Source: Tetrahymena thermophila SB210
Taxonomy: Eukaryota; Ciliophora; Oligohymenophorea; Hymenostomatida; Tetrahymenidae
NCBI RefSeq assembly: GCF_000189635.1
Contig: NW_002476248.1
Coordinates: 16,631-80,630 of the forward strand
Direction of reading: 5' to 3'
DNA: 64,000 nucleotides
In this document: positions 5,325-50,800 of the stretch, piece after piece
How the letters are laid out: the number at the start of each line of letters is the position of its first letter
Position numbering within the stretch: the first letter of the stretch is position 1
Translations under genes and position numbers: made by a program
Notes under the pieces: model-generated
Told to the model about the DNA's origin: nothing
The model's input: the letters and a program-made list of their open reading frames with translations, nothing else
The model's database searches: none

Positions 5325-8300
5325 TCAGATTTTTTTATTTTCCTTCATCAATTTTATTCTATTTAGTGATCTCCTTTCTGTAGGATTAATTGAAAGAACT
5401 TTATTATAGAACTCAAGGGCTTTTTCATATTAGTCTTTTTTCTCGTAAACAAGCCCTGAATTGTAAAGAGATAACTCGTATTTAGGATTTATTTCAAGAG
5501 CTTTGTTGTATTGTTCAAGTGCTTAATCATTCTTTCCTTGATCATAGTAAATAAGTCCTATGTTATTATATGCTATTTCATTATTAGGTTCAATTTCTAA
5601 AATCTTTTAATAGTATTCAGTGGCTTGCTCATAAGAGGCTTTGTCTGAATAGATGTTACCTAATTATATGTAAGAATTTACATACTTAGGATCTAGTTCA
5701 ATCGCCTTTTTATGGCTAGAAATAGCTTCATCAACCATACTTTTATCTTCATATACTCTAGCTAATTCATAGTAAATATCAGCAGATTACTAAACTGAAT
5801 TATAAAACTCTTTAGCTTCCTCAGTCATTTTTTAATTTATATATAGAGTCATTAAAGCACTTATAGAATCTAAACTATTGGGTTTATGTTCAATGGCTTT
5901 TTTGTAGCATTCAATTGCCTCTTCAAATTGTTCATTTTCTTCATAAACTAAACCGAGTTTATCATAAGCCTCAGAATACTTTGGATCGATTTCAATAGCT
6001 TTTTTTAAGCACTTTATGCATTCCTAATCCTTCATCTAATTATAATATTTAAAACCTTGATTGTAATAGTCTTCTGCAGTTTAAAGATCTTTCTTTTATT
6101 CATCGCCATCTTCATAATCATCATCATAATCTTCTGGCTCTGATACTTCATCCTCTTTGGTTTAGTTATCTATTTTGTCTCCATTATTCTTTTTTATTAG
6201 GTTAATTCTATTAAGAGTTTTCTTGTCTTTTGGGTTTATTTTAAGAACTTTTTTATAGCATTCAAGAGCTTTGTCAAAATCCTTTTTTTACTCATAAACT
6301 AAACCAGAATTGTAATAGGAGAGGTCATAATTAGGGTCCAGTTCTAGAGCTTTATTGTAGTACTCGATTGCTTTGTCATCCATTTTCTACTTGTAATGTA
6401 CAAGTCCTATATTATTATAAGCTACTGCTTTTTGAGGATTTATTTGTATTATTTTTTGGTAGCATTCGAGTGCTTAATCGTATTCTGCTTTACCTAAGTG
6501 TAAATTACCTAGTTCGATGTAAGCATTGATATAAAGAGGATCTAGTTCTATAGCTTTTTAGAAGTAATCAATAGCTTCTTCGGTCATTTTACATTCTGAA
6601 TAAATAGTTGCTAGTTCATAGTAAGTTTCTAAGCATTTAGGAATTTGATTGAAAAATTCCTTTGCTTCATTTACCATAAATTTATCTTAGTATATTTTCA
6701 CTAAACTACGAATGCATTCCATTCCTTTTGGATTAACTTTAATTCCTTTTTAGTAAAATTCTATAGCCTCATCAAACTTTTTCTATTATGAGTAGACAAA
6801 ACCTAACCTTTCATAAGCTGCATAATAGTTTGGATCTATTTCAATAGCTTTTTTTAGGCATTCTATTGATTTATCATCTTCCATTTGCATATAATAAAGG
6901 AAAGCTTAGCTATATTGTTACTCTGCAGTTGATTTGTTGCTAGAACCAAATTTATTTTGTAAATCGTCAAGGAAGTCAAATCCGTTATTTGAAGAATTAT
7001 TCTTTTTCTATAGAGCTCTTTTTCTTGCAAGGGATCTAGATTCAGTAGGGTTGATTTCAAGAACTTTATTGTAACACTCAAGAGCTTTGTCTGTTTAATT
7101 TTTTCTTTCGTAAACAAGTCCAGAGTTGTAAAGTGATAATTCATATTTCGGATTAATTTCTAAAGCTTTGTTAAATTATTCAAGAGCTTCATCATTCATA
7201 TTTTAATCGAAATAAACTAGCCCTATATTATTATAGGCCACTGGTTTTTGAGGATCAATTTCTAATATTTTCTTATATGTTTCAAGTGCTTGGTCAAACA
7301 TAGGTTTATCTAGATAAGCGTTACCTAATTGAATGTAAGCATTAATATACTTTGAGTCTAATTCAATTGCTCTTTAGTAGCTTCCTATAGCTTCATCAAG
7401 CATATTTTAGTCTTAGTAAACCCTTCCCAAATGATAATGAGTTTCAACGCATTTAGGCACATAGTCGTAGAACTCTTTAGCCTCGTTTATCATTTTTCTA
7501 TCCAAATAATAATTCATCACTGCTTCCATAGCAGCAAAGCACTTAGGATTTACTTCTATAGCTTTTTTGTAAGATTAAATAGCTTCTTCATACTTTCTAT
7601 TTGCTTTTAATACAAGACCTAGTTTGTCGTAGGCTTCAGAGTAGTTTGGATCTAATTCAATAGCCTTATTTAAGCACTTGATTGATTCATCATCATTCAA
7701 TTCAGTGTAATATTTATACCCTTCTTCATAGTAATCTTTAGCAGTTTAAAGATTTTTCTCCTACTACTCTTCTTTGTCAGTTCCTTAAGCTTATTTTCCA
7801 GTTTTCTTTTTCAGTTTATTTAGTCTGCTTAATGTATTCTTATGAGCTGGATTGATTTCAAGAGCTCTATTATAGCATTCAAGAGCCTTATCTTTCTAAT
7901 GTTTTTTTTCATAAACCAGCCCTGAATTGTATATAGATAACTCATATTCAGGGTCTGCTTCTATAGCTTTATTGAATTATTCAAGTGCCTCGTCTAGCAT
8001 GTTTTATCTTAAATATATAAGGCCTATATTATTATACGCGACTGGTTCTTTTGAGTCTATTTCTATTATTTTTTAATAGCACTCCATGGCTTAATCGTAT
8101 AACGGTTTATCTAAATAAGCGTTGCCTAATTAGATATAAGCATTAATGTATTTAGAGTCTAACTCAAGTACTTTTTTATAGTAGACAATAGATTCATCAA
8201 GCATATTTTGATCTTAGTAAACTTTTGCTAATTTATAATAAGCATCAAGGTTTTTAGGAACTTATTCAGAGAATTCTTTAGCTTCTTTAATCATTTTTTT

Positions 8301-11300
8301 ATCTAAATACATGTTCATCACTGTCTCCATAGCAGAATAAAATTTTGGGTTGAGTTCGAATGCTTTTTTGTAGTGGGTAATAGATTCGTCAAACATCTTT
8401 TTTTCTTTATAAACTAAACCAAGTTTATCATATGCTTCATAGAAATTTGGGTCTATTTCTAAAGCTTTTTTCAGACATTCTATGGCTTTGTCATCATTCT
8501 ATTATTAATAGTAGTCAAAGCCTTCATAATAATAATCGTCTGCTGTTGAAAGAACTTTCTTTTTATCTTTTTTAAATATATCTTTAAAAAGACTAAACTC
8601 TTTATCATCTTTTGAAGTTTGCTTGTTTTGTTAGATCACCTTTATTCTATTAAGAGATTTTTTTTCAGTGGGATTTATTTCTAATGTTTTATAAAAGAAT
8701 TCAAGAGCTTTATCTTATTCTCCTTTTTTTTCATAAACCAATCCGCTGTTGAAAAGGGCTAATTCGTAATGAGGATCGACATCAAGAGCCTTTTTATAAT
8801 ATTCAAGCGCTGCATCATACAATCCTTACTTGTTATAGACAACTCCAACATTGTTATAAGCAACAGCTTTTTTAGGATCTATTTCTATTATTTTTTTATA
8901 GGAATCAAGAGCTAAATCAAATTGCAATTTGTCTAAATAAGAATTTCCTAAATAAATGTAGGAGTTAATATGACTAGGGTCTAATTATATTGCTTTTTTA
9001 TAATTTACTATAGCGTCATCAAGCATATTTTACTCTTCATATGTTCTTCCTAATTCATAATAAGCTTCAGTGCATTTTGGAACGAATTCGCAAAATTCCT
9101 AAGCTTCTTTAATCATTTTTTTGTCCAAATATAGATTCATCACAGCTTTCATAGCACTGAAGCATTTAGGATTGATTTCAATAGCTTTTTTGTAATTTTC
9201 AACTGCTTCATCAAATTTTTTATTAGTTTTGTGCAGTAGACCTAATTTTTCATATGCTTAAAAGTAATTTAGGTCCAATTCTAAGGCTTTTTTGTAACAG
9301 TTTATGGACTCTTCATCCTTCATTTAATTGTAATACTTAAATCCTTAATCAAGATAATCCTTGGCAGTTTCAAGTTTTTACTCTTACTCTTATTCTTTCT
9401 TTTTTAATATCTCCATTCTTGCTAAAGTTTTCTTTTCAGTTGGGTTTATAGCAAGTACTTGGTTATATAACTCAAGAGCTTTATCTTTTTAATTTTTCTT
9501 TTCATAAACCAAGCCTGAGTTGTAAATAGATAGCTCATATTTTGGATTCACTTCAAGAGCTTTGTTGAAATATTCTAGTGCCTAATCATCGATATTTTAT
9601 CTGAAATAGACAAGACCCATATTATTGTAAGCAACTGCCTGTTTAGAATCTATATTTAAAATATTTTAGTAGCACTCAAGCGCCTTCTCATAATCAGGCT
9701 TGTTTAAGTAGAGACTTCCTAGCAAAATATGTGCATCAATGTCATTAGGGTCTAATTCAAGTACTTTCTTATAATTTGTAACTGATTCTTCAAACATATT
9801 TTGAGATTTGTACACGTCAGCAAATTCATAGTAAGTATCTAAATTTTTGGGTACTTCATCATAGAAGGCTTTAGCTTCATCGAGCATTTTTCTATCCAAG
9901 TAAATATTCATAACTGTCTTTATAATATCTAAACAATCAGGGTTTATTTCTAAAACTTTTTTATAGTTAACAATAGCTTCATCAAACATCTTTTTCTCTT
10001 TGTAAATAAGGCCTAATTTGTCATAGGCTTCATAATAGTTTGGATCTAACTCTAGAGCTTTTTATAAGCATTCTATTGATTATTCATCCTTCAACTAAAT
10101 GTAATATTTGTAACCTTATTAATAAAATTCCTTTGCAGTTTTTGGAGTTTTATCTTCCTATTGATTTTTTTAATTTATTTAAAAAATTCTTACTTTTGCC
10201 TTTTTATCATTTGGTTTTATTTAAAGAACTTTTTAATAACACTCAAGTGCTTTATCGTTTTGGTTTTTTTATTGATACACAAGCCCGGTGTAGTAAATTG
10301 CTAATTCATAGTTTGGATTTATTTCTAAGGCTTTGTTAAAATTTTCAATAGCTTAATCATAACTTTTCTAAGTATAATACATAAATCCAATGCCATTGAA
10401 TATTGCAGCATTATTAGCATCAATTTCTTCAGCTTTAGAAAAGCATTCAAGAGCTTTTTCATTGATTCCTTTAGCAGAATAGATGCTACCCAATCCAAGA
10501 TAAGATTTTATGCATTTTGGATCTAACTCGATTGCTGCTAAATAGAAACGAATAGCCTCTTCCATCTACTTGATAGCCTAGTTAAGCTGTCCTAAGTTAC
10601 AGAAAGCTTAAGTATATTTTGGATTCAGCTATATAGTCTTTTCATAGCATTTGATACACTCTTTTATCATATTAGTTTAAACAAAAAGCTCATCTTCAAA
10701 TAGGGTGCTCAAATTGCTATCATTAACTTTATTGTAACATTCAAAAGCTTCAGATTACATGTTCTTTTAAGAATAAGCATTTCCTTGTCTTATAAAAGTA
10801 GTAATGTGATTTGGGTTCATCTCTTCAGTTTTCTTGTAATATTCCAAGGCTTCTTCTAGCATATTTTTTGATTCATATGTTGCTCCTAAGTTGTAGTAAA
10901 TTAAGTAATCAGTTGTATCAAGCTATAATCTTTTTTTAAAGTAATCTAAGGCCTCATCATACATATTTTTCAAGTAATAAATGTATCCTAAATTGTTTAG
11001 GGCACTTAAATTATTCTCCTCGATTGCTAATACATTTTGATAGCAAGCAATTGCTTCATCATAGTTTTTCAAAATTGTTTATAGCATTGCCAAACTAACA
11101 TAAGAGTAGGTGTATTTTGGGTTTATTTCTATTGCTTTTTTGTAGCATTCAATAGCTTCAGTAGTATTTCCTTATAATTCATAAACTTCTGCACTTCTAT
11201 AATAAGCTTTATAATAATTTGGATCTACTTGAATGGCTTTTTTAAAACAGGATTGAGCTTCATCAAACATTTTTTAGTCAGAGTAAATTATACCTAAGTT

Positions 11301-12548
11301 AAGATAGGCATTAGTATACTCTGGATTTAGCTCTATAACTTTTTTATATGTTTTGACAGCTTCTTCATTCATATCTTTATCTTGATATAAAAAGGCTAAC
11401 TAAAAATGATCGTAATGACTATATGGATCGATTTAAATTATTTTTTTGAAGCATTCAATACCCTCGTCTGCCAAATTCTACTCAATGCAAAGATCTCCCA
11501 AATTTGTCAGAGATTTAAGAAATTTAGGATTCATTTCTATTGATTTCTTGTAACTTTCAATAGCATTTTATATTAAATTTTATTTTTCATAAGCAAGCGC
11601 AGAGTTGTGGTAGGCCTTGTGATATTAAGGATCTACATCAAGTGCTTTCTTATAATACTCAAGTGCTTCTGTGATCATATTTTTATGATAATAGACAAGT
11701 CCTATGTTATTATAAGAATCAGGGCTTTTTGGATTAATTTCAATGGCTTTTTGAAAATAAGTAAGTGCTTCATCATCTTTTTATTCTTCATAGTATAGTA
11801 ACCCTAGATTAAACTGAGCGTTAAAATATTTAGGATCTATTTCAATAGCTTTTTTGTAATGCTTGATAGCCTCCTCCTTCTTACTTGTATTCTAGTAAAC
11901 ATACCCAAGCCTTTCATAAGCTTCTACACAATTCTAATCAATTTCTATAGCTTTTTTGAGATATTTGATAGAATCTTCAATTTTATAATCAGTATAGTAG
12001 TTACGAGCTAGGCTGATATAAGTATTAACATAATTAGGATCAATATTAAGTATGTTCTTATAGCAATCGTAAGCTTAATCGATCATGTTTTTGCTTTCGT
12101 AAGCAAATCCTAAGTTGTGATGAGCTTCTGTAAAATTTGGATCTATTTCGATAGCTTTTTTAAAGCACTATATAGCTTTATTTGTAAGATTTTATTTTTT
12201 ATAAGCAAAACCTAATCTTTCATGAGCCTTAGCGCTTTTAGGGTCTATTTCTAGAGCTTTTTAAAGGCATGCAACTGCTTCGTCAAGCATTTTTTTTTGT
12301 AAATAATTTTCAGCTTTGCAGATGTAGGCATTTAAATAGTTGGGATTTTTTTCGATTGCTCTGTTAAGAAACTCGAGAGATTCATCATGCTGTTTCTTTG
12401 ACTGATGAATTAAGCCAAGATTATAGAGAGCTTCTACATTGCTAGCGTCTACTTCTAGAACCTTTTTGTAGCATTCAATAGCCTCCTCAAGCAAATTCTA
12501 CTTTTAAAAATCAAGAGCCTTATCACAGAGAGATTGACTATCTTCCAT
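5325..12548 (-). CDS. giant tetratricopeptide-repeat protein, copy A
   Basis: A single uninterrupted frame of 2407 residues; TAA and TAG occur often and only TGA ends it. It begins MEDSQSLCDKALDFQKQN and is made almost wholly of 34-residue TPRs of the type A.E.Y.KALEIDPN...A (e.g. LEEAIECYKKVLEVDASN), about 65-70 copies by length. The N-terminal ~780 residues are continuous TPRs. The rest is a series of ~265-residue modules, each ending in a short charged linker with (S)LNRI or similar. One linker (about 6085-6180) is strongly acidic (Glu/Asp/Tyr). There is no transferase, kinase or other catalytic domain, so this is probably a protein-binding scaffold; its partner is unknown. No signal peptide or membrane helix was seen. 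The tandem paralogue lies directly upstream in the same orientation. Confidence 0.93.
5340..10200 (-). repeat. ~800-bp super-modules inside TPR gene copy A
   Basis: A marker made of the end of one linker plus the first TPR (NPT.K..LNRI, then ...NP) recurs near 5361, 6210, 7028, 7831, 8651, 9424 and 10190. The spacing is about 849, 818, 803, 820, 773 and 766 bp. Each module holds about seven TPRs. The same order is seen in copy B. Confidence 0.85.
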
Positions 12549-14902: not shown

Positions 14903-17900
14903 TCAGATTTTTTTATTTTGTTTCATCAATTTTATTCTATTTAGTGATCTCCTTTCTGTAGGATTAATTGAAAGAACTTTATTATAGAACTCAAGGGCTT
15001 TTTCATATTAGTCTTTTTTCTCGTAAACAAGCCCTGAATTGTAAAGAGATAACTCGTATTTAGGATTTATTTCAAGAGCTTTGTTGTATTGTTCAAGTGC
15101 TTAATCATACTTTCCTTGATCATAGTAAATAAGTCCTATGTTATTATATGCTATTTCATTATTAGGTTCAATTTCTAAAATCTTTTAAAAGTATTCAATG
15201 GCTTGCTCATAAGAAGCTTTTTCTGAATAAATGTTACCTAATTATATGTAAGAATTTACATACTTAGGATCTAATTCAATAGCCTTTTTATGACTAGAAA
15301 TAGCTTCATCGACCATACTTTTATCTTCATATACTCTACCTAATTCATAGTAAATATCAGCAGATTACGAAACTGAATTATAAAACTCTTTAGCTTCATC
15401 AGTCATTTTTTAATTTATATAGATAGTCATTAAAGCACTAATACAATCTAAATTATTGGGTTTATGTTCAATGGCTTTTTTGTAGCATTCAATTGCCTCT
15501 TCAAATTGTTCATTTTCTTCATAAACTAAACCGAGTTTATCATAAGCCTCAGAATACTTTGGATCGATTTCAATAGCTTTTTTTAAGCACTTTATGCATT
15601 CCTAATCCTTCATCTAATTATAATATTTAAAACCTTGATTGTAATAGTCTTCTGCAGTTTAAAGATCTTTCTTTTATTCATCGCCATCTTCATAATCATC
15701 ATCATAATCTTCTGGTTCTGATCCTTCATCTTCTTGAGCTTAATTATCAATTTTGTCTCCATTATTCTTTTTTATTAGGTTAATTCTATTAAGAGTTTTC
15801 TTATCTTTTGGGTTTATTTAAAGAACTTTTTTATAGCATTCAAGAGCTTTGTCAAAATCCTTTTTTTACTCATAAACTAAACCAGAGTTGTAATAGGAGA
15901 GGTCATAATTAGGGTCCAGTTCTAGAGCTTTATTGTAGTACTCGATTGCTTTGTCATCCATTTTCTACTTGTAATGTACAAGTCCTATATTATTATAAGC
16001 TACTGCTTTTTGAGGATTTATTTGTATTATTTTTTGGTAGCATTCGAGTGCTTAATCGTATTCTGCTTTACCTAAGTATAAATTACCTAGTTCGATGTAA
16101 GCATTGATATAAAGAGGATCTAGTTCTATAGCTTTTTAGAAGTAATCAATAGCTTCTTCGGTCATTTTACATTCTGAATAAATAGTTGCTAGTTCATAGT
16201 AAGTTTCTAAGTATTTAGGAATTTGATTGAAAAATTCCTTTGCTTCATTTTCCATATTTTTATCTTAGTATATTTTCACTAAACTACGAATGCATTCCAT
16301 TCCTTTTGGATTAACTTTAATTCCTTTTTAGTAAAATTCTATAGCCTCATCAAACTTTTTCTTTTTTGAGTAGACAAAACCTAACATTTCATAAGCTGCA
16401 TAATAGTTTGGATCTATTTCAATAGCTTTTTTTAGGCATTCTATTGATTTATCATCTTCCATTTGCATATAATAATGGAAAGCTTAGTTAAATTTTTCTT
16501 CTGCAGTTGATTTGTAGCTAGGACCAAATTTATCTTGCAAATCTTTGAGGAAATCAAATCCAGTATTTGAAGAATTATTCTTTTTCAAGAGAGCTATTTT
16601 TCTTGCAAGGGATCTAGATTCAGTAGGGTTGATTTCAAGTACTTTATTGTAACACTCAAGAGCTTTTTCTGTTTAATTTTTTCTTTCGTAAGCAAGTCCA
16701 GAGTTGTAAAGTGATAATTCATATTTCGGATTAATTTCTAAAGCTTTGTTAAATTATTCAAGAGCTTCATCATTCATATTTTAATCGAAATAAACTAGCC
16801 CTATATTATTATAGGCCACTGGTTTTTGAGGATCAATTTCTAATATTTTCTTATATGTTTCAAGTGCTTGGTCAAACATAGGTTTATCTAGATAAGCGTT
16901 ACCTAATTGAATGTAAGCATCGATATACTTTGAATCTAATTCTATTGCATTTTAGTAGCTTCCTATAGCTTCATCAAGCATATTTTAGTCTTAGTAAACC
17001 CTTCCCAAATGATAATGAGTTTCAGCGCATTTAGGCACATAGTCGTAGAACTCTTTAGCCTCGTTTATCATTTTACTATCCAAGTAATAATTCATCACTG
17101 CTTACATAGCAGCAAAACACTTAGGATTTACTTCTATTGCTTTTTTGTAAGATTAAATAGCTTCTTCATATTTTCTATTTTCCTTTAATACAAGGCCTAG
17201 TTTATCGTAAGCTTCAAAGTAGTTTGGATCTAATTCAATAGCTTTATTTAAGCACTTAATTGATTCATCATCATTCAATTCAGTGTAATATTTATACCCT
17301 TCTTCATAGTAATCTTTTGCGGTTTAAAGATTTATCTCCTACTACTCTTCTTTGTCAGTCTCTTAAGCTTATTTTCCACTCTTCTTCAGTACACTTATTC
17401 GGTTATATGAATTCTTATGAGCTGGATTGATTTCAAGAGCTTTATTATAGCACTCAAGAGCCTTATCTTTCTATTGTTTTTTTTCATAAACCAGCCCTGA
17501 ATTGTATATAGATAATACATATTTAGGGTCTATTTCTATAGCTTTATTGAATTACTCGAGTGCTTCGTCAAGCATGTTTTGTCTTAAGTATATAAGGCCT
17601 ATATTATTATACGCTACTGATTTTGTTGAGTCTATTTCTATTATTTTTTAATAACACTCCATGGCTTAATCGTATAACGGTTTATCTAAATAAGCGTTGC
17701 CTAATTAGATATAAGCATTAATATATTTAGAGTCTTACTCAAGTACTTTTTTATAGTAGACAATAGATTCATCAAGCATATTTTGATCTTAGTAAACTTT
17801 TGCTAATTTATAATAAGTATCAAGGTTTTTAGGAACTTATTCAGAGAATTCTTTAGCTTCTTTAATCATTTTTTTATCTAAATACATGTTCATCACAGTC

Positions 17901-20900
17901 TCCATAGCAGAATAAAATTTTGGGTTGAGTTCTAGTGCTTTTTTGTAGTGGATAATAGATTCGTCAAACATTTTTTTTACTTTATAAACTAAGCCAAGTT
18001 TATCATATGCTTCATAGAAATTTGGATCTAATTCTAATGCCTTTTTCAGACATTCTATGGCTTTATCATCATTCTATTATTGATAGTAGACTAAGCCTTC
18101 ATAATAATAATCGTCTGCTGTTGAAAGAACTTTCTTTTTATCATTTTTAAATAAATCTTTAAAAAGACTAAACTCTTTATCATCTTTTGAAGTTTGCTTG
18201 TTTTGTTAGATCACCTTTATTCTATTAAGAGATTTTTTTTCAGTGGGATTTATTTCTAATGTTTTATAAAAGAATTCAAGAGCTTTATCTTATTCTCCTT
18301 TTTTTTCATAAACCAATCCGCTGTTGAAAAGGGCTAATTCGTAATGAGGATCGACATCAAGAGCCTTTTTATAATATTCAAGCGCTGCATCATACAATCC
18401 TTACTTGTTATAGACAACTCCAACATTGTTATAAGCAACAGCTTTTTTAGGATCTATTTCTATTATTTTTTTATAGGAATCAAGAGCTAAATCAAATTGC
18501 AATTTGTCTAAATAAGAATTTCCTAAATAAATGTAGGAGTTAATATGACTAGGGTCTAATTATATTGCTTTTTTATAATTTACTATAGCGTCATCAAGCA
18601 TATTTTACTCTTCATATGTTCTTCCTAATTCATAATAAGCTTCAGTGCATTTTGGAACGAATTCGCAAAATTCCTAAGCTTCTTTAATCATTTTTTTGTC
18701 CAAATATAGATTCATCACAGCTTTCATAGCACTGAAGCATTTAGGATTGATTTCAATAGCTTTTTTGTAATTTTCAACTGCTTCATCAAATTTTTTATTA
18801 GTTTTGTGCAGTAGACCTAATTTTTCATATGCTTAAAAGTAATTTAGGTCCAATTCTAAGGCTTTTTTGTAACAGTTTATGGACTCTTCATCCTTCATTT
18901 AATTGTAATACTTAAATCCTTAATCAAGATAATCCTTGGCAGTTTCAAGTTTTTACTCTTACTCTTATTCTTTCTTTTTTAATATCTCCATTCTTGCTAA
19001 AGTTTTCTTTTCAGTTGGGTTTATAGCAAGTACTTGGTTATATAACTCAAGAGCTTTATCTTTTTAATTTTTCTTTTCATAAACCAAGCCTGAGTTGTAA
19101 ATAGATAGCTCATATTTTGGATTCACTTCAAGAGCTTTGTTGAAATATTCTAGTGCCTAATCATCGATATTTTATCTGAAATAGACAAGACCCATATTAT
19201 TGTAAGCAACTGCCTGTTTAGAATCTATATTTAAAATATTTTAGTAGCACTCAAGCGCCTTCTCATAATCAGGCTTGTTTAAGTAGAGACTTCCTAGCAA
19301 AATATGTGCATCAATGTCATTAGGGTCTAATTCAAGTACTTTCTTATAATTTGTAACTGATTCTTCAAACATATTTTGAGATTTGTACACGTCAGCAAAT
19401 TCATAGTAAGTATCTAAATTTTTGGGTACTTCATCATAGAAGGCTTTAGCTTCATCGATCATTTTTCTATCCAAGTAAATATTCATAACTGTCTTTATAA
19501 TATCTAAACAATGAGGGTTTATTTCTAAAACTTTTTTAAAGTTAACAATTGCTTAATCAAACATCTTTTTCTCTTTGTAAATAAGGCCTAATTTGTCATA
19601 GGCTTCATAATAGTTTGGATCTAGCTCAAGAGCTTTTTATAAGCATTCTATTGATTATTCATCCTTCAACTAAATATAATATTTATAGCCTTATTAATAA
19701 AATTCCTTTGCAGTTTTTGGAGTTTTATCTTCCTATTGATTTTTTTAATTTATTTAAAAAATTCTTACTTTTGCCTTTTTATCATTTGGTTTTATTTAAA
19801 GAACTTTTTAATAACACTCAAGTGCTTTATCGTTTTGTTTTTTTTATTCATACACAAGTCCAGTGTTGTAAATTGCTAATTCATAGTTTGGATTTATTTC
19901 TAAGGCTTTTTTAAGATTATCAAGAGCTTAGTCTAAAATTTTCCAATTATAATACATAAATCCAATACTATTAAATGTTTCAGCATTATTAGCATCAATT
20001 TCTTAAGCTTTAGAAAAGCATTCAAGAGCTTTTTCATTGATTCCTTTAGCAGAATAGATGCTACCCAATCCAAGATAGGGTTTTAAGCATTTAGGATCTA
20101 ACTCGATTGCTGCTAAATAGAAACGAATTGCCTCTTCCATCTGCTTGATTGCCTAATTAAGCAGTCCTAAGTTACAGAAAGCTTAAGTATATTTTGGATT
20201 AAGTTATATTGCCTTTTCATAGCATTCAATTAACTCAACTATTATTTCAGTTTAAATAAAAAGATCATCATCGAATGTGGATTTCAAATCGCTATCTTTG
20301 ACTTTATTATAACACTCAAAAGCTTCAGATTGCATATTCTTTTAAGAATAAACATTTCCTTGTCTGACAAAAGTGGCAATGAATTTTGGGTTCATCTCTT
20401 CAATTTTTTTGTAATATTCCAAGGCTTCTTCTAGCATATTTTTTGATTCATATATTGTTCCTAAGTTGTAGTAAGCGAGGTAATAACTTGAATCAAGCTA
20501 TAATATTTTTTTAAAGTAATCTAAGGCCTCATCAAACATATTTTATTACTAATAAACATCCCCTAAATTGTTTAGGGCATCTAGGTTATCCTCCTCTATT
20601 GCTAATATGCTTTAATAGCAAGCTATTGCTTCATCATAGCTTTTCTAAGTTGTTTTCAGTATTGCTAAACTAAAATATGATTTAATATGTTTTGGGTTTA
20701 TTTCTATTATTTTTTTATAGCATTCAATAGCTTCAGTAGTATTTCCTTTTAATTAATAAACTTCTGCACTTCTATAATAAGCATTCCAGCAATTTGGATC
20801 TATTTAAATAACTTTTTTAAAGCAGGCTTGAGCTTCATCAAACATTTTTTATTTAAAATAAATTACACCTAAGTTAATATGGGCATTAGTATACTGTGGA

Positions 20901-22123
20901 CTTAATTCAATAACTTTTTTATATGCCTTGACAGCTTCTTCATTCATATCTTTATTTTGATATAAAAAACCTAACTAAAAATAGTCATAATGACTCTTTG
21001 GATTTATTTAAATTATTTTTTTGAAGCATTCAATACCCTCGTCTGACAAATTCTACTTAACGCAAAGATCTCCCAAATTTGTCAAAGATTTAAGAAATTT
21101 AGGATTGATTTCTATTGATTTCTTGTAACTTTCAATAGCATTTTATATTAAATTTTATTTTGCATAAGCAAGCCCAGAGTTATGGTGGGCTTTGTAATAT
21201 AAAGGATTTACATCAAGTGCTTTTTTAAAATACTCAAGTGCTTCAGTTATCATATCTTTATGATAGTAGACGAGCCCTATGTTATTATAAGAATCAGAAC
21301 TTTTTGGATTAATTTCAATGGCTTTTTAAAAATAGGTAAGTGCCTCATTATCTTTTTATTCTTAATAATATAGTAACCCTAGGTTAAACTGAGCATTAAA
21401 ATAATTAGGATCTATTTCAATAGCTTTTTTAAAATACTTGATAGACTCCTCCTTCTTACTTATATTCTAGTAAATATACCCAAGCCTTTCATAAGCTTCT
21501 ACGCAATTCTAATCCATTTCTATAGCTTTTTTGAGATATTTGATAGAATCTTCAGTTTTATATTCAATATAATAGTTACGAGCTAGGCTGATATAAGCCT
21601 TAACATAATTAGGATCTATATTAAGTATGTTTTTATAGCAATCATACGCTTAATCGATCATTTTTTTGCTTTCGTAAGTAAATCCTAAGTTGTGATGAGC
21701 TTCTGTAAAATTTGGATCTATTTCAATAGCTTTTTTTAAGCAATCTATAGCTTTATCTGTAAGATTTTATTTCTTGTAAGCAAAACCTAATCTTTCATGA
21801 GCCTTCGCGCTTTTAGGGTCTATTTCTAGAGCTTTTTAAAGGCATACAACAGCTTCTTCAATCATTTTCTTTTGTAAATAATTTTCAGCTTTGCAGATGT
21901 AGGCATTTATATAGTTAGGATTTTTTTCCACTGCTTTATTAAGAAACTCGAGAGATTCATCAAGTTGTTTCTTTGATTGATAAATTAAGCCAAGATTATA
22001 GAGAGCTTCTACATTACTATAGTCTACTTCTAGAACCTTTTTGTAGCATTCAATAGCCTCATCAATCAAATTCTACTTTTAAAAATCAAGAGCTTTATTA
22101 AATAGAGTTTCAGTATCTTCCAT
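14903..22123 (-). CDS. giant tetratricopeptide-repeat protein, copy B
   Basis: A single frame of 2406 residues starting MEDTETLFNKALDFQKQNLI and ending at TGA. It is a close paralogue of the upstream copy, one codon shorter, with the same order of TPRs, linkers and acidic linker. Similarity is uneven. Parts of the N-terminal half differ at many positions, while about 18155-19458 appears identical to 8580-9883, and most of the C-terminal first ~800 bp is nearly identical. The role is inferred only from TPRs: protein-protein scaffold. Both copies keep an open frame over more than 7 kb, so both are probably functional. Confidence 0.93.
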
Positions 22124-43001: not shown

Positions 43002-43904
43002 ATGTTGTCAAGAGCTATTTCAACCTTTGCAAAGAACCAAGTTCTTCAAAAATCACTTTATTAAGGAACTGCTCCTCTTTACAATTTCACAAGATTTTCT
43101 GAGAAGCTCAACAGAGTTAAGAGCAAATCCAATGAAGGTTTTGCCTAACCTGATAACGATTCAGCCATGCATCATGTTATTACTAATGATGGATTGAACG
43201 CTTTCATTACTAGAGTTTACAAGACTACAGGTTTAGGTATTATGGGTGCTTTGAGTACCTCTACTTTAGCCGTCTCTTCTGGTTTAGCATACACTAGTCC
43301 TCTTTTCTGCGGTCTCGGAGGATTCGTTATGGCTCTTGGAGGTATTTTGGGAAGCAGCTACATGAGTCCCAATTATTATTCTGAAGTCATTAAAGGATAA
43401 GTTCACTAAAAGACTTCTAACACTCCTATGAGATTGGGTCTCTACAGTTTAGGTATGGCTGGATTGGGATTGTCTTCTTCTGTCCTTTTCGGTTCTCTCC
43501 ACATGATTAATCCTGCCATTTTACCTTTAAGTATTGGTATTACTGGTGCCGTTTTCGGTTCCGCTTCTCTTTATGCTCTTTACAAGCCAAAGGATTCTCT
43601 CCTCTCTTGGGGAAGCAGCTTATACGCTGGTTTATTCGGTATGATTGGTTTACAATTAGCTGGTGCCTTGACCCAACTCTTCATGGGTCCTAACTTATTT
43701 ACATTCATGTGCCACAGAGCTGACTGCTTCATTGGAGTCGGTCTTTTCACTGCCATGGTTGCTTACGATACCCATGTTGCCATTAAATAATACGAAATGG
43801 GCAATGCTGATCACTTGGGTGTTTCTATCGATTTTGCTTTAGATTTCTGGAATATTCTTACACGTGTTGCTCAAATTTTGGGAATATATAGCAAGGACGA
43901 TTGA
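43002..43904 (+). CDS. Bax inhibitor-1 / TMBIM family membrane protein
   Basis: Intron-free, 300 residues, ending at TGA. After ~70 residues come six to seven hydrophobic segments (about 70-265) rich in Gly/Ala/Leu, closing with the family signature YDTHVAIKQYEMGNADHLGV, then SIDFALDFWNILTRVAQILG. These features place it in the Bax-inhibitor-1 superfamily. The N-terminus (MLSRAISTFAKNQVLQKSLY) is Arg/Lys/Ser-rich without acids, like a mitochondrial presequence, which points to the GHITM/TMBIM5-like mitochondrial inner-membrane branch. Codon use has more C and G than its neighbours (many TCT, GGT, AAG, ATC), as in well-expressed Tetrahymena genes. The family is linked to ion homeostasis and cell-death control in animals; the ciliate role is inferred. 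Confidence 0.92.
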
Positions 43905-47861: not shown

Positions 47862-50800
47862 ATGATATAATAGATTAAAAGATATTATAAATTAGAAGAA
47901 GTAATTATTAATTTTTTATCAAATAACTTTAAATTTATTTTGTTTGATATAAAAAGTTTTTAAACTCTTCACTTTAATCTCATCAGGTTCTCCATATTTA
48001 TCTGAGGTATATTTCATTTATAAATATTCTCATTATAATAAATATTTTATACTTATTTAACTTTCAGTTTATTTTAATATTTGATATTTTTTATTCATTT
48101 TTTCCTTCTAAAACTTTACTAGATAAAAACTGTATATTAGTTTTGGATTGTGATGTTTTTACTTAAATAAATTAATTTATTACAAAAAAACTCTTTTTAC
48201 TTGTTTGTTTATTACCTTTTTATTTTATTTTATTTAATTTTATTTTTCATTTTTATTGTATTTGTGTGTTTTTTTTCTTCTATCTTTCTTAATTGAACTG
48301 AACTCATATTTTTTTTTTAACATTTGCTTGTATTATTTTTTAATTCATTTCTTATTTGTTTATATTTTTACTTCATTTTTCCATCTAAATAATTAATTAA
48401 TTATAATTTTTTTTCTCAATATTTATAAAGTTAAAATAAAATTGATGTAAAATGTGTATCAGGCTTAGGTTCTGCTTTAGCAAATTGCACAAATCTCTCA
48501 AATTTGACACTTGATCTTCGGTAAAAATAGTTTATTAGTTTTGGAGTAATTTTTTTATTTATAAAAATGAATTTAAAATAATATAGCTCTTTTAACTTAC
48601 TTATGTTTTTTATTTGTTTTACTTTTTTACTATACTTTTGTTTTTTTATTTCTTCTATCTTTCTGAATTTAAATTATTTTTGTATTTTCAGCATTTACTT
48701 TTATTATTTATTATTTAATTTATTTCTTATTATTTAATATTTTTTGTTCATTTGTTCCTTCTAAATAGCTAATTAATTATTATTATTTTTTAATATTTAA
48801 AAAGTTTGAATTAAATTGGTGATTAGGGTATATCAGACTTAGGTTCTGCTTTAGCAAATTGCACTAATCTCTCAAATTTGACACTTGTTCTTCAGTAAAA
48901 ACAGTTTATTAGTTATAAAAATGAATTTAAAATAATATAGCTCTTTTAACTTGTTAATTAAATTTCTATTTGAATTACTTTCTTTTTCTTTTTTATTGTT
49001 CTTGTGTTTTTTTATTCTATTTTTCTATATTTAACTCATTTTTTATAGATTTTTTTATTTATTTATTCATTTCTTATTATTTAAAATTTTTTCATCCTTT
49101 TTTCCTTCTAAATAGCTAATTAATGATATATTTTTTCTTCAATATTTAAAAAGATACAATTAAATTGGTGGTATATACATACATACATACATACATACAT
49201 ACATACATACATACATACATACATACATACTCGCACATGGTGACATGCACTCGGGATAGGGGCCCTATATATAATTACTTATACATTATTATTATACGTA
49301 TACCAATTTATTTATATATAATTGTGGGTAATATACTAGAAGGGAAGGGTCACCTACACCCTAATGGCATTTCTACTAATCTTCCATGATTTGACTACGC
49401 ATTATGCTCGCTTCCCATTTGTATTCCAGATCTTCTGTTCAGAATGGGGCCTCCTCTTTACCACCTATCAGATTTGGCCCTTCCCTCCTACCAAGGAGAC
49501 CGCTGGTAACATTCACATTTTTACATGGAATTTTTCGAAATAAAGGGGGCGGTATAGGATTCGAACCCCCGATATCACTGCTAAGACCCTTCGACTCGCC
49601 CACTCGAGCCGCTTAGCCCTTCTTAAATTGGTGGTTAAGGTGCATAAGGCTTAGGTACTGCTTTAAAAAATTGCATTAATCTCATAAATTTGACACTTGA
49701 TCTTGGGTAAAAGCTGTTTATTTGTTTTGGATTATGATACTTTTAGTTATAAAAATAAATATTTAACAATTTACTCTTTTAACTTGTTTTTTAGATTTTT
49801 ATTTGATTTACTTTTCTTTTTTATTGTACTTGAGTTTTTTTTCTTTCTATCTTTCTTAATTTAACTCATTTTTTTATTTTCAATATTTGCTTTAATTATT
49901 TTTAAATTCGTTTGTTATTATTTCAAATTTTTTCTTCCTTTTTTCCTTCTAAATAAATAAATAACTAATTATTCATATTTTTAATATTTAAAAAGTTGGA
50001 ATTAAATTGGTTCAAAAGGTGCATCAGGCTTAAATTCTTATTTAGCGTATTGCACTAATCTCTAAAATTTGAAACTTTCTCTTAGGTAAATCAGTTTATT
50101 TGTTTTAGATAGTAATATTTTTTTTAATAGAAAAGAATTTAAAACAATATAGCCCATTTTGCTTATTTATTAGATTTTTATTTGATTTCTTTTCTTTTTT
50201 ATTGAACTTGTGTTTTATTTCTCTCTATCTTTATTAATTTAACTCATCTTTTTATTTTCAATATTTGCTTTTATAATTTATTTCATATTTTTCTTCATTT
50301 TTTTCTTCTAATTTTTAATTATTTGTATTTTTTTTTCGATATTTAAAAAGAGCAAATTATATTGGTGATCAAGGTGCATCATGCTTAGGTTCTGCTTTAG
50401 TAAGTTGCACTAATTTCTCAAATTTGACACTTGATCTTGAGTAAAAACAATTTATTTATTTTGGATTGTGATATTTTTTAATTACAAAAATGAATTTAAA
50501 ACAATAAATCTCTTTAACTTGTTTATTAGATTTTTATTTGATTTTAAGTGTGTTGTTTTTTCTTTCATCTTTCAAAATATAACTCATATTTTTATTTTGG
50601 ACATTTTTTTCTTAATTTTTTCCTTACTTAATTTTTTGTTTTTTCATCAATTTAAAAAGATAGAATGAAATTGGTGACTAAGGTGCATCACTCTTAATTT
50701 CTGCTTTAGCAAATTGCAATAATCTCTCCAATTTGACACTTTTTCTTGAGTAAAAACAGTTTATTTGTTTTAGATTGTGATATTTTTAGTTATAAAAATG

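Follow-up and report, generated by a model that had tools for sequence, protein, structure and literature searches.

In a stretch of 64,000 nucleotides (nt) of the Tetrahymena thermophila SB210 genome (contig NW_002476248.1 of assembly GCF_000189635.1, positions 16,631 to 80,630; hereafter the window), an exon of a leucine-rich repeat (LRR) gene is interrupted by an insert that has a body of 392 nt and a (TATG)n tail. We conclude that this insert is very probably a recently active non-autonomous retroposon, that is, a short interspersed element (SINE), which uses target-primed reverse transcription to enter the Tetrahymena 90-bp-type LRR exon at a single fixed site. The element occupies at least 42 places in the same genome, spread over many contigs. 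Every copy found lies at the same exon site and in the same orientation, which is a real surprise and had not been foreseen in the preliminary description of this DNA. That description had proposed a SINE-like retroposon within an LRR exon, and the proposal is supported by the other copies, by their 5′ ends, by their target duplications and by their TATG tails.

The element, its copies and its target site

The insert stands out from its surroundings by its base composition, as had been noted before: the guanine-cytosine content of the 392-bp core is 43%, whereas the two flanking 2-kb stretches have 17% and 20%. The 13-bp repeats described at its borders are exact, and when the insert and one of these duplicates are removed, the LRR sequences on both sides join, as predicted, into an exon of exactly 90 nt with AG before it, GT after it and an open frame in the ciliate code (code 6). 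The (TATG)n tail is likewise present as described, and the other copies carry tails of varying length. The body leaves no room for a reverse transcriptase and an endonuclease, the longest ATG frame wholly inside it measuring 58 amino acids (aa). None of the four inverted pairs found connects both ends of the element, and a miniature inverted-repeat transposable element or other DNA transposon was rejected because terminal inverted repeats are absent. A 16-nt internal resemblance between element and target (inverted pair I1) is at chance level, as 83 of 300 shuffles equal it (with a consensus-like target).

Second copies were sought throughout the assembly (101.0 Mb in 445 contigs), since their absence would speak against a SINE. 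That this assembly belongs to T. thermophila is borne out by a stretch of telomerase sequence in it, which matches telomerase reverse transcriptase chains of the PDB. The first of these is 2r4g, the T. thermophila protein, with identity at 101 of 102 aligned residues; the single mismatch falls on the first aligned residue, possibly at the edge of an intron. The insert as query gave 41 matches, two of which are gap-split pieces of one copy, leaving 40 places including the window, and queries with the 3′ end added two further places on contigs C110 and C41. Because the searches scored the best 40 of 43 to 53 candidates, the total is at least 42 places. The element is thus short, non-coding and present in many copies at dispersed locations, as expected for a SINE. 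The contigs that bear copies reach 1.87 Mb and the LRR flanks differ from copy to copy, which argues against contamination or a chimera, raised earlier as possible sources of the insert. Full-length copies number 36, three of which are short of 1–2 nt at the 5′ end. Two copies (L043 and L045) are 5′-truncated and each has a target duplication, another (L044) contains an assembly gap and shows the same 13 nt, ATCACCAATTTCA, on both sides, and a further one (L046) ends at a contig end. The C41 copy has LRR sequence on both sides (162 bases read), with a flank spacing that allows less than the full 392 nt. The mean pairwise identity of the 36 full-length elements is 99.3% (630 pairs) and the average copy departs from the consensus at only 2.2 positions, so that their spread must be recent. 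Within this narrow range, two-state variants are shared among the full-length copies at alignment columns 14, 161, 210, 288, 334 and 385. All four combinations occur in 9 of the 15 pairs of these six sites, which suggests that copies have exchanged sequence by conversion, recombination or template switching.

The target is the 90-bp-type LRR exon, whose array unit measures about 345 bp. In all 42 copies found the tail runs into the same site of the LRR exon at the 3′ joint, and in all 42 the element is antisense to the gene; insertion at one position and in one orientation of a multicopy target is the behavior of a site-specific element. Target duplications of 11–14 nt were measured in 38 of the 42 copies, the scripted measurement covering all but L044, L046, the C110 copy (L080) and the C41 copy. 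To compare the duplicates, the stretch that best matches the consensus 11-mer was picked separately on each side. The 5′ and 3′ 11-mers proved identical in 38 of 38 copies, while 10,000 shuffles of the partners gave a mean of 9.3 identical pairs and a maximum of 17, and in 20 of the 38 the duplication differs from the consensus 11-mer. Joining the flanks with one duplicate gives an AG/GT-bounded open exon of exactly 90 nt in 37 of these copies (the exception is L043); keeping both duplicates gives a 90-nt exon in none of the 38. Matches to the 23-nt target with at most 3 mismatches number 3190 in the genome, whereas a reversed-pattern control gave 0. Since these 3190 sites face 42 copies, most target sites are empty; a few are already filled. 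The parts of the insert in the window are listed in Table 1.

Table 1. Parts of the interrupted LRR exon and of the element, and other genes of the window (positions in the window).
Feature	Position	Strand	Remarks
LRR exon, 5′ part	49154–49172	+	directly after AG at 49152–49153
Target-site duplication, copy 1, TTAAATTGGTGGT	49160–49172	+	exact 13-nt repeat
Element 3′ tail, (TATG)n	49173–49230	−	58 nt, about 14.5 units; (CATA)n on the plus strand
Element body	49231–49622	−	392 nt; read on the minus (sense) strand from 49622 (5′) to 49231 (3′)
tRNA-like head, supposed promoter region	49541–49622	−	box A-like and box B motifs
Perfect B box, GGTTCGAATCC	49557–49567	−	kept in 36/36 full-length copies
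A-box-like motif, CGGCTCGAGTGGG	49599–49611	−	relaxed pattern
Best strict A-box matches	49608–49619 and 49591–49602	−	10/12 each; equally good positions
Target-site duplication, copy 2, TTAAATTGGTGGT	49623–49635	+	exact repeat of 49160–49172
LRR exon, remainder	49636–49706	+	followed by GT
Giant TPR-repeat protein gene	5325–12548	−	2407 aa
Giant TPR-repeat protein gene	14903–22123	−	2406 aa
Bax inhibitor-1 family gene	43002–43904	+	Pfam Bax1-I

Marks of retroposition and a proposed mechanism

Tail length ranges from 2.8 to 20.8 units across 38 copies, and 16 of the 36 full-length copies carry 1–4 extra nucleotides (A, AA, AAA, AAAA or AAAC) at their 5′ joint. Variable tails, 5′ truncations, duplications of each copy's own target and extra nucleotides at the 5′ joint are known marks of target-primed reverse transcription in SINEs and in long interspersed elements (LINEs). 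The tails, truncations, duplications and extra A's found here therefore indicate that the element moved by this route. A genome search for a helper LINE, made with a combined tail-plus-target pattern, gave 86 matches at up to 2 mismatches, compared to 29 in the control. Of the three matches read outside the SINE copies, two (L078 and L079) look like chance. At the third (L077, in the region of G000:C181:13111), some 18 units of (TATG)n abut the LRR site with no body, and part of the exon sequence is missing; either the tail alone was inserted or a deletion has left this remnant.

The preliminary description had pointed to promoter motifs in the head of the element. The B box is indeed perfect; the A box is imperfect, with a best match of 10/12 that is reached at two positions equally well. 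A perfect B box occurred in 5 of 5000 dinucleotide shuffles, and in combination with an equally good A box 20–60 nt upstream in only 1 of 5000. Judged from these motifs, the box A and box B elements suggest transcription by RNA polymerase III (Pol III).

In the mechanism that we propose, the RNA of the element would be produced by Pol III from the internal A and B boxes, and a LINE of the germline micronucleus would supply the endonuclease and the reverse transcriptase. The endonuclease would nick the LRR-sense strand directly after ...AATTAAATTGGTGAT, and the freed 3′ OH would prime reverse transcription within the (UAUG)n tail. A second nick on the opposite strand, offset by about 13 nt, would then give rise to the duplication. 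The choice of site can be read in two ways, in that it is either the helper endonuclease or the RNA that recognizes the site.

It is also conceivable, if rather doubtful, that the SINE homes by itself, borrowing its terminator from the target, so that a target-derived RNA end would guide insertion and each copy would inherit a guide from its own target. A T run just downstream of the site (the antisense of the ...AAAAAG end of the intron) would stop the Pol III transcript, and the resulting RNA end, with some 17–25 nt of target sequence, would pair with the nicked primer strand elsewhere. On the element sense strand, TTTT lies within 21 nt downstream of the site at 94 of 95 empty sites, compared to 30% of random nearby positions; these empty sites come from the fetched stretches, so that a few sites in overlapping stretches may have been counted twice. 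Beyond the duplication core, the first T run ends 17–25 nt after the start of the duplication in 37 of 38 copies, and after 112 nt in L043, which lacks such a T run and would be expected to make no target-carrying RNA. Between copies, the 26-nt target-derived ends have a median identity of 81% and a minimum of 23% (ungapped). Because of this median, pairing with the primer strand of other sites should be good, if imperfect. That the target-derived RNA end is used in targeting is speculation.

Alternative explanations, host genes and other genes of the window

Several observations weigh against a SINE moved by target-primed reverse transcription. The helper LINE was not found in this assembly, since searches with the final 61 and 100 nt of the body matched only copies of the element (among the best 40 of 43 and 40 of 44 candidates, respectively). 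The sole RVT_1 match of the genome (L081, G000:C134:182753-183433 and around) belongs to the second open reading frame of a LINE, which has 971 aa with a reverse transcriptase and a sub-threshold match to an APE-type endonuclease, and is open under code 6. A (TATC)n run follows this frame, and the 4 kb read contain no LRR exon; in view of this run and of the lack of clear similarity to the SINE, we rejected this LINE as helper. A scan of viral contigs with a 21-nt piece gave no match. Nor does the head reveal a tRNA: a search against Rfam gave no tRNA match at E ≤ 10, and its 12 weak matches, mostly to microRNA models on the TATG run, include none at the gathering score. No isotype is claimed, since the best score of the head (30) lies within the range of shuffled heads (mean 23.6, up to 35) in a comparison with 18 tRNA sequences. 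These sequences, several of which are near-identical, are part of the tRNA genes of this genome (63 of 6697 candidates were scored and 30 loci cut, plus 10 Ser/Leu-type stretches). The sense strand of the element is free of TTTT, which is not significant because 3123 of 5000 shuffles likewise lack it. The truncated copy L080 (G000:C110:35800-37000) has the usual LRR site on its 3′ side and other AT-rich DNA, with no LRR sequence, on its 5′ side, and is possibly a rearrangement or a junction of an internal eliminated sequence (IES). Separately, 43 nt of this 5′ flank resemble a stretch near tRNA-Lys genes. Finally, the flanks of some copies are near-identical (at least 97% alike in at least 15 of 630 5′-flank pairs and 3 of 595 3′-flank pairs), and the two copies at L026 represent one duplicated insertion, with common flanks, tail and haplotype.

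ARAGORN found no tRNA in the window. At a relaxed threshold the head was reported in 20 of the 36 full-length copies, yet also in 48 of 300 shuffles, and the fold of the head is no better than that of shuffles (z −0.32). The label 'tRNA-derived' that was initially given to the element, and with it the tRNA ancestry of the head, is thus unproven.

The fixed target position could in principle arise after insertion, if germline insertion were not site-specific and copies elsewhere were removed as IESs during macronuclear development while those in LRR exons were retained. This explanation draws on the nature of the assembly, which is probably macronuclear because it holds a single RVT_1 match in 101 Mb, and on the LINE REP of Tetrahymena, which is mostly eliminated from the macronucleus (PMC6564038). 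Against a macronuclear origin speak the open LINE frame of L081 and the absence of telomere repeats from the stretches fetched, of which seven extend to the end of a contig. Retention might enrich copies in LRR genes, but it could hardly single out the same base and the same orientation in a unit that measures about 345 bp, and the introns of the LRR arrays hold none of the 42 copies found. We therefore regard selective retention as improbable.

Still less probable is that one insertion occurred in one LRR unit, which then multiplied together with its insert by unequal crossing-over or gene conversion. Exon shuffling is the proposed means by which LRR arrays expand (PMC6564038), the L026 pair demonstrates that one such unit duplication exists, the further near-identical flank pairs point the same way, and the four-combination variant pairs indicate that copies have undergone conversion or recombination with one another. 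However, the flanks are on average much more diverged than the elements: mean identity is 86% for the 5′ flanks (70 nt, 36 copies, 630 pairs) and 77% for the 3′ flanks (250 nt, 35 of the 36 copies, 595 pairs). In addition, in the 20 of 38 copies mentioned above the same departure from the consensus is present in both duplicates, as is expected if the site varied before insertion and not if both had mutated independently later, and the differing tail lengths and truncation points require separate events. Elements that are 99.3% alike within LRR flanks that are 77–86% alike thus indicate that most copies are separate, recent insertions. A few copies may be duplicates of others, although near-identical flanks are also expected if the LRR units themselves are young repeats, and because of such flank pairs the separateness of every single copy cannot be proven.

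For the host gene, the insertion means that the LRR frame runs into a stop 14–164 codons after the start of the exon, in the insert or soon past it, in 36 of 37 frame-mapped copies; no stop occurs within the 700 nt read at L022. In Tetrahymena, nearly 50,000 exons measure exactly 90 bp, and more than 96% of them are separated by phase 2 introns (PMC6564038). As the exons have 90 nt and mostly the same intron phase, skipping of the interrupted exon would cost one repeat and keep the frame. The rDNA is a safe haven for the retrotransposon R2, and by analogy the LRR exon array could plausibly be such a haven for the present element. That LRR genes have instead domesticated the element for regulation or splicing, for which its constant antisense placement at the same exon position might be invoked, can practically be dismissed given its 42 copies versus 3190 matching sites, the stop in nearly all frame-mapped copies and the free variation of tail length.

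Among the other genes of the window are two giant TPR-repeat protein genes in tandem, each with one long open frame, which are 91% identical overall. Residues ~900–1320 are almost identical beside more diverged parts (alignment viewed to about residue 1510), a pattern such as is left after gene conversion. The Bax inhibitor-1 family gene lies in the kilobase with the highest GC content of the window (38%).

Relation to known elements and significance

SINEs are generally dispersed. Unlike them, the present element keeps to a single exon site, and both its tRNA origin and a 3′ end shared with a LINE are candidate features. It otherwise resembles SINEs with a partner LINE (PMC3747384) in being short and non-coding, in its box A/B-like head, target duplications and simple-repeat tail, and also in its 5′ truncations and near-identical copies. 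In our reading it is a SINE with site specificity, whose target is a protein-coding exon repeat. Most target copies of R2 are empty, as are the LRR sites here. With R2, Tx1, the R1 clade and Utopia (PMC4640811) the element shares the use of one site in a multicopy sequence, but it differs from all of these in being non-coding and in having a protein-coding exon family as its target. The targets of site-specific elements without long terminal repeats (non-LTR) comprise rRNA, tRNA, spliced leader and small nuclear RNA genes as well as telomeric and microsatellite repeats, and no protein-coding exon family appears in the target lists consulted in that source (PMC4640811).

Within Tetrahymena, the closest parallel is the non-LTR retrotransposon REP, which is strongly associated with the same LRR units of 90-bp exons (PMC6564038). 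In contrast to the SINE, REP is autonomous, mostly eliminated from the macronucleus and located in LRR introns, and its 54-bp tail is kept in 169 macronuclear copies (PMC6564038). The 3′ end of the SINE was found in SINE copies only. REP is a candidate helper at most. Putative germline SINEs of Paramecium (PMC5405496) are also non-coding repeated elements of a ciliate, but they are repeats inside other elements, for which no head, tail or target site is described in the consulted part of that source. Retrotransposons are infrequent in the Tetrahymena germline genome (PMC5182062). Neither 'SINE' nor 'short interspersed' occurs in the main text of that article, and the word SINE is likewise absent from the main text of Xiong et al. 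2019 (PMC6564038). No Tetrahymena SINE, and no SINE with such a target, was found in the titles and abstracts searched, a set that lies outside subscription journals, preprints, Repbase and Dfam.

The present data thus describe what appears to be a non-coding SINE that has settled in a protein-coding exon family, and this in an organism in which retroelements are reported to be infrequent and REP to be mostly restricted to the germline. If this is true, macronuclear LRR genes bear young mobile DNA within their exons. The element would then mark the part that retrotransposition is suspected to have played in the growth of the 90-bp exon LRR genes and, since Tetrahymena can be cultured and is genetically accessible, provide a tractable model for how a SINE gains target specificity.
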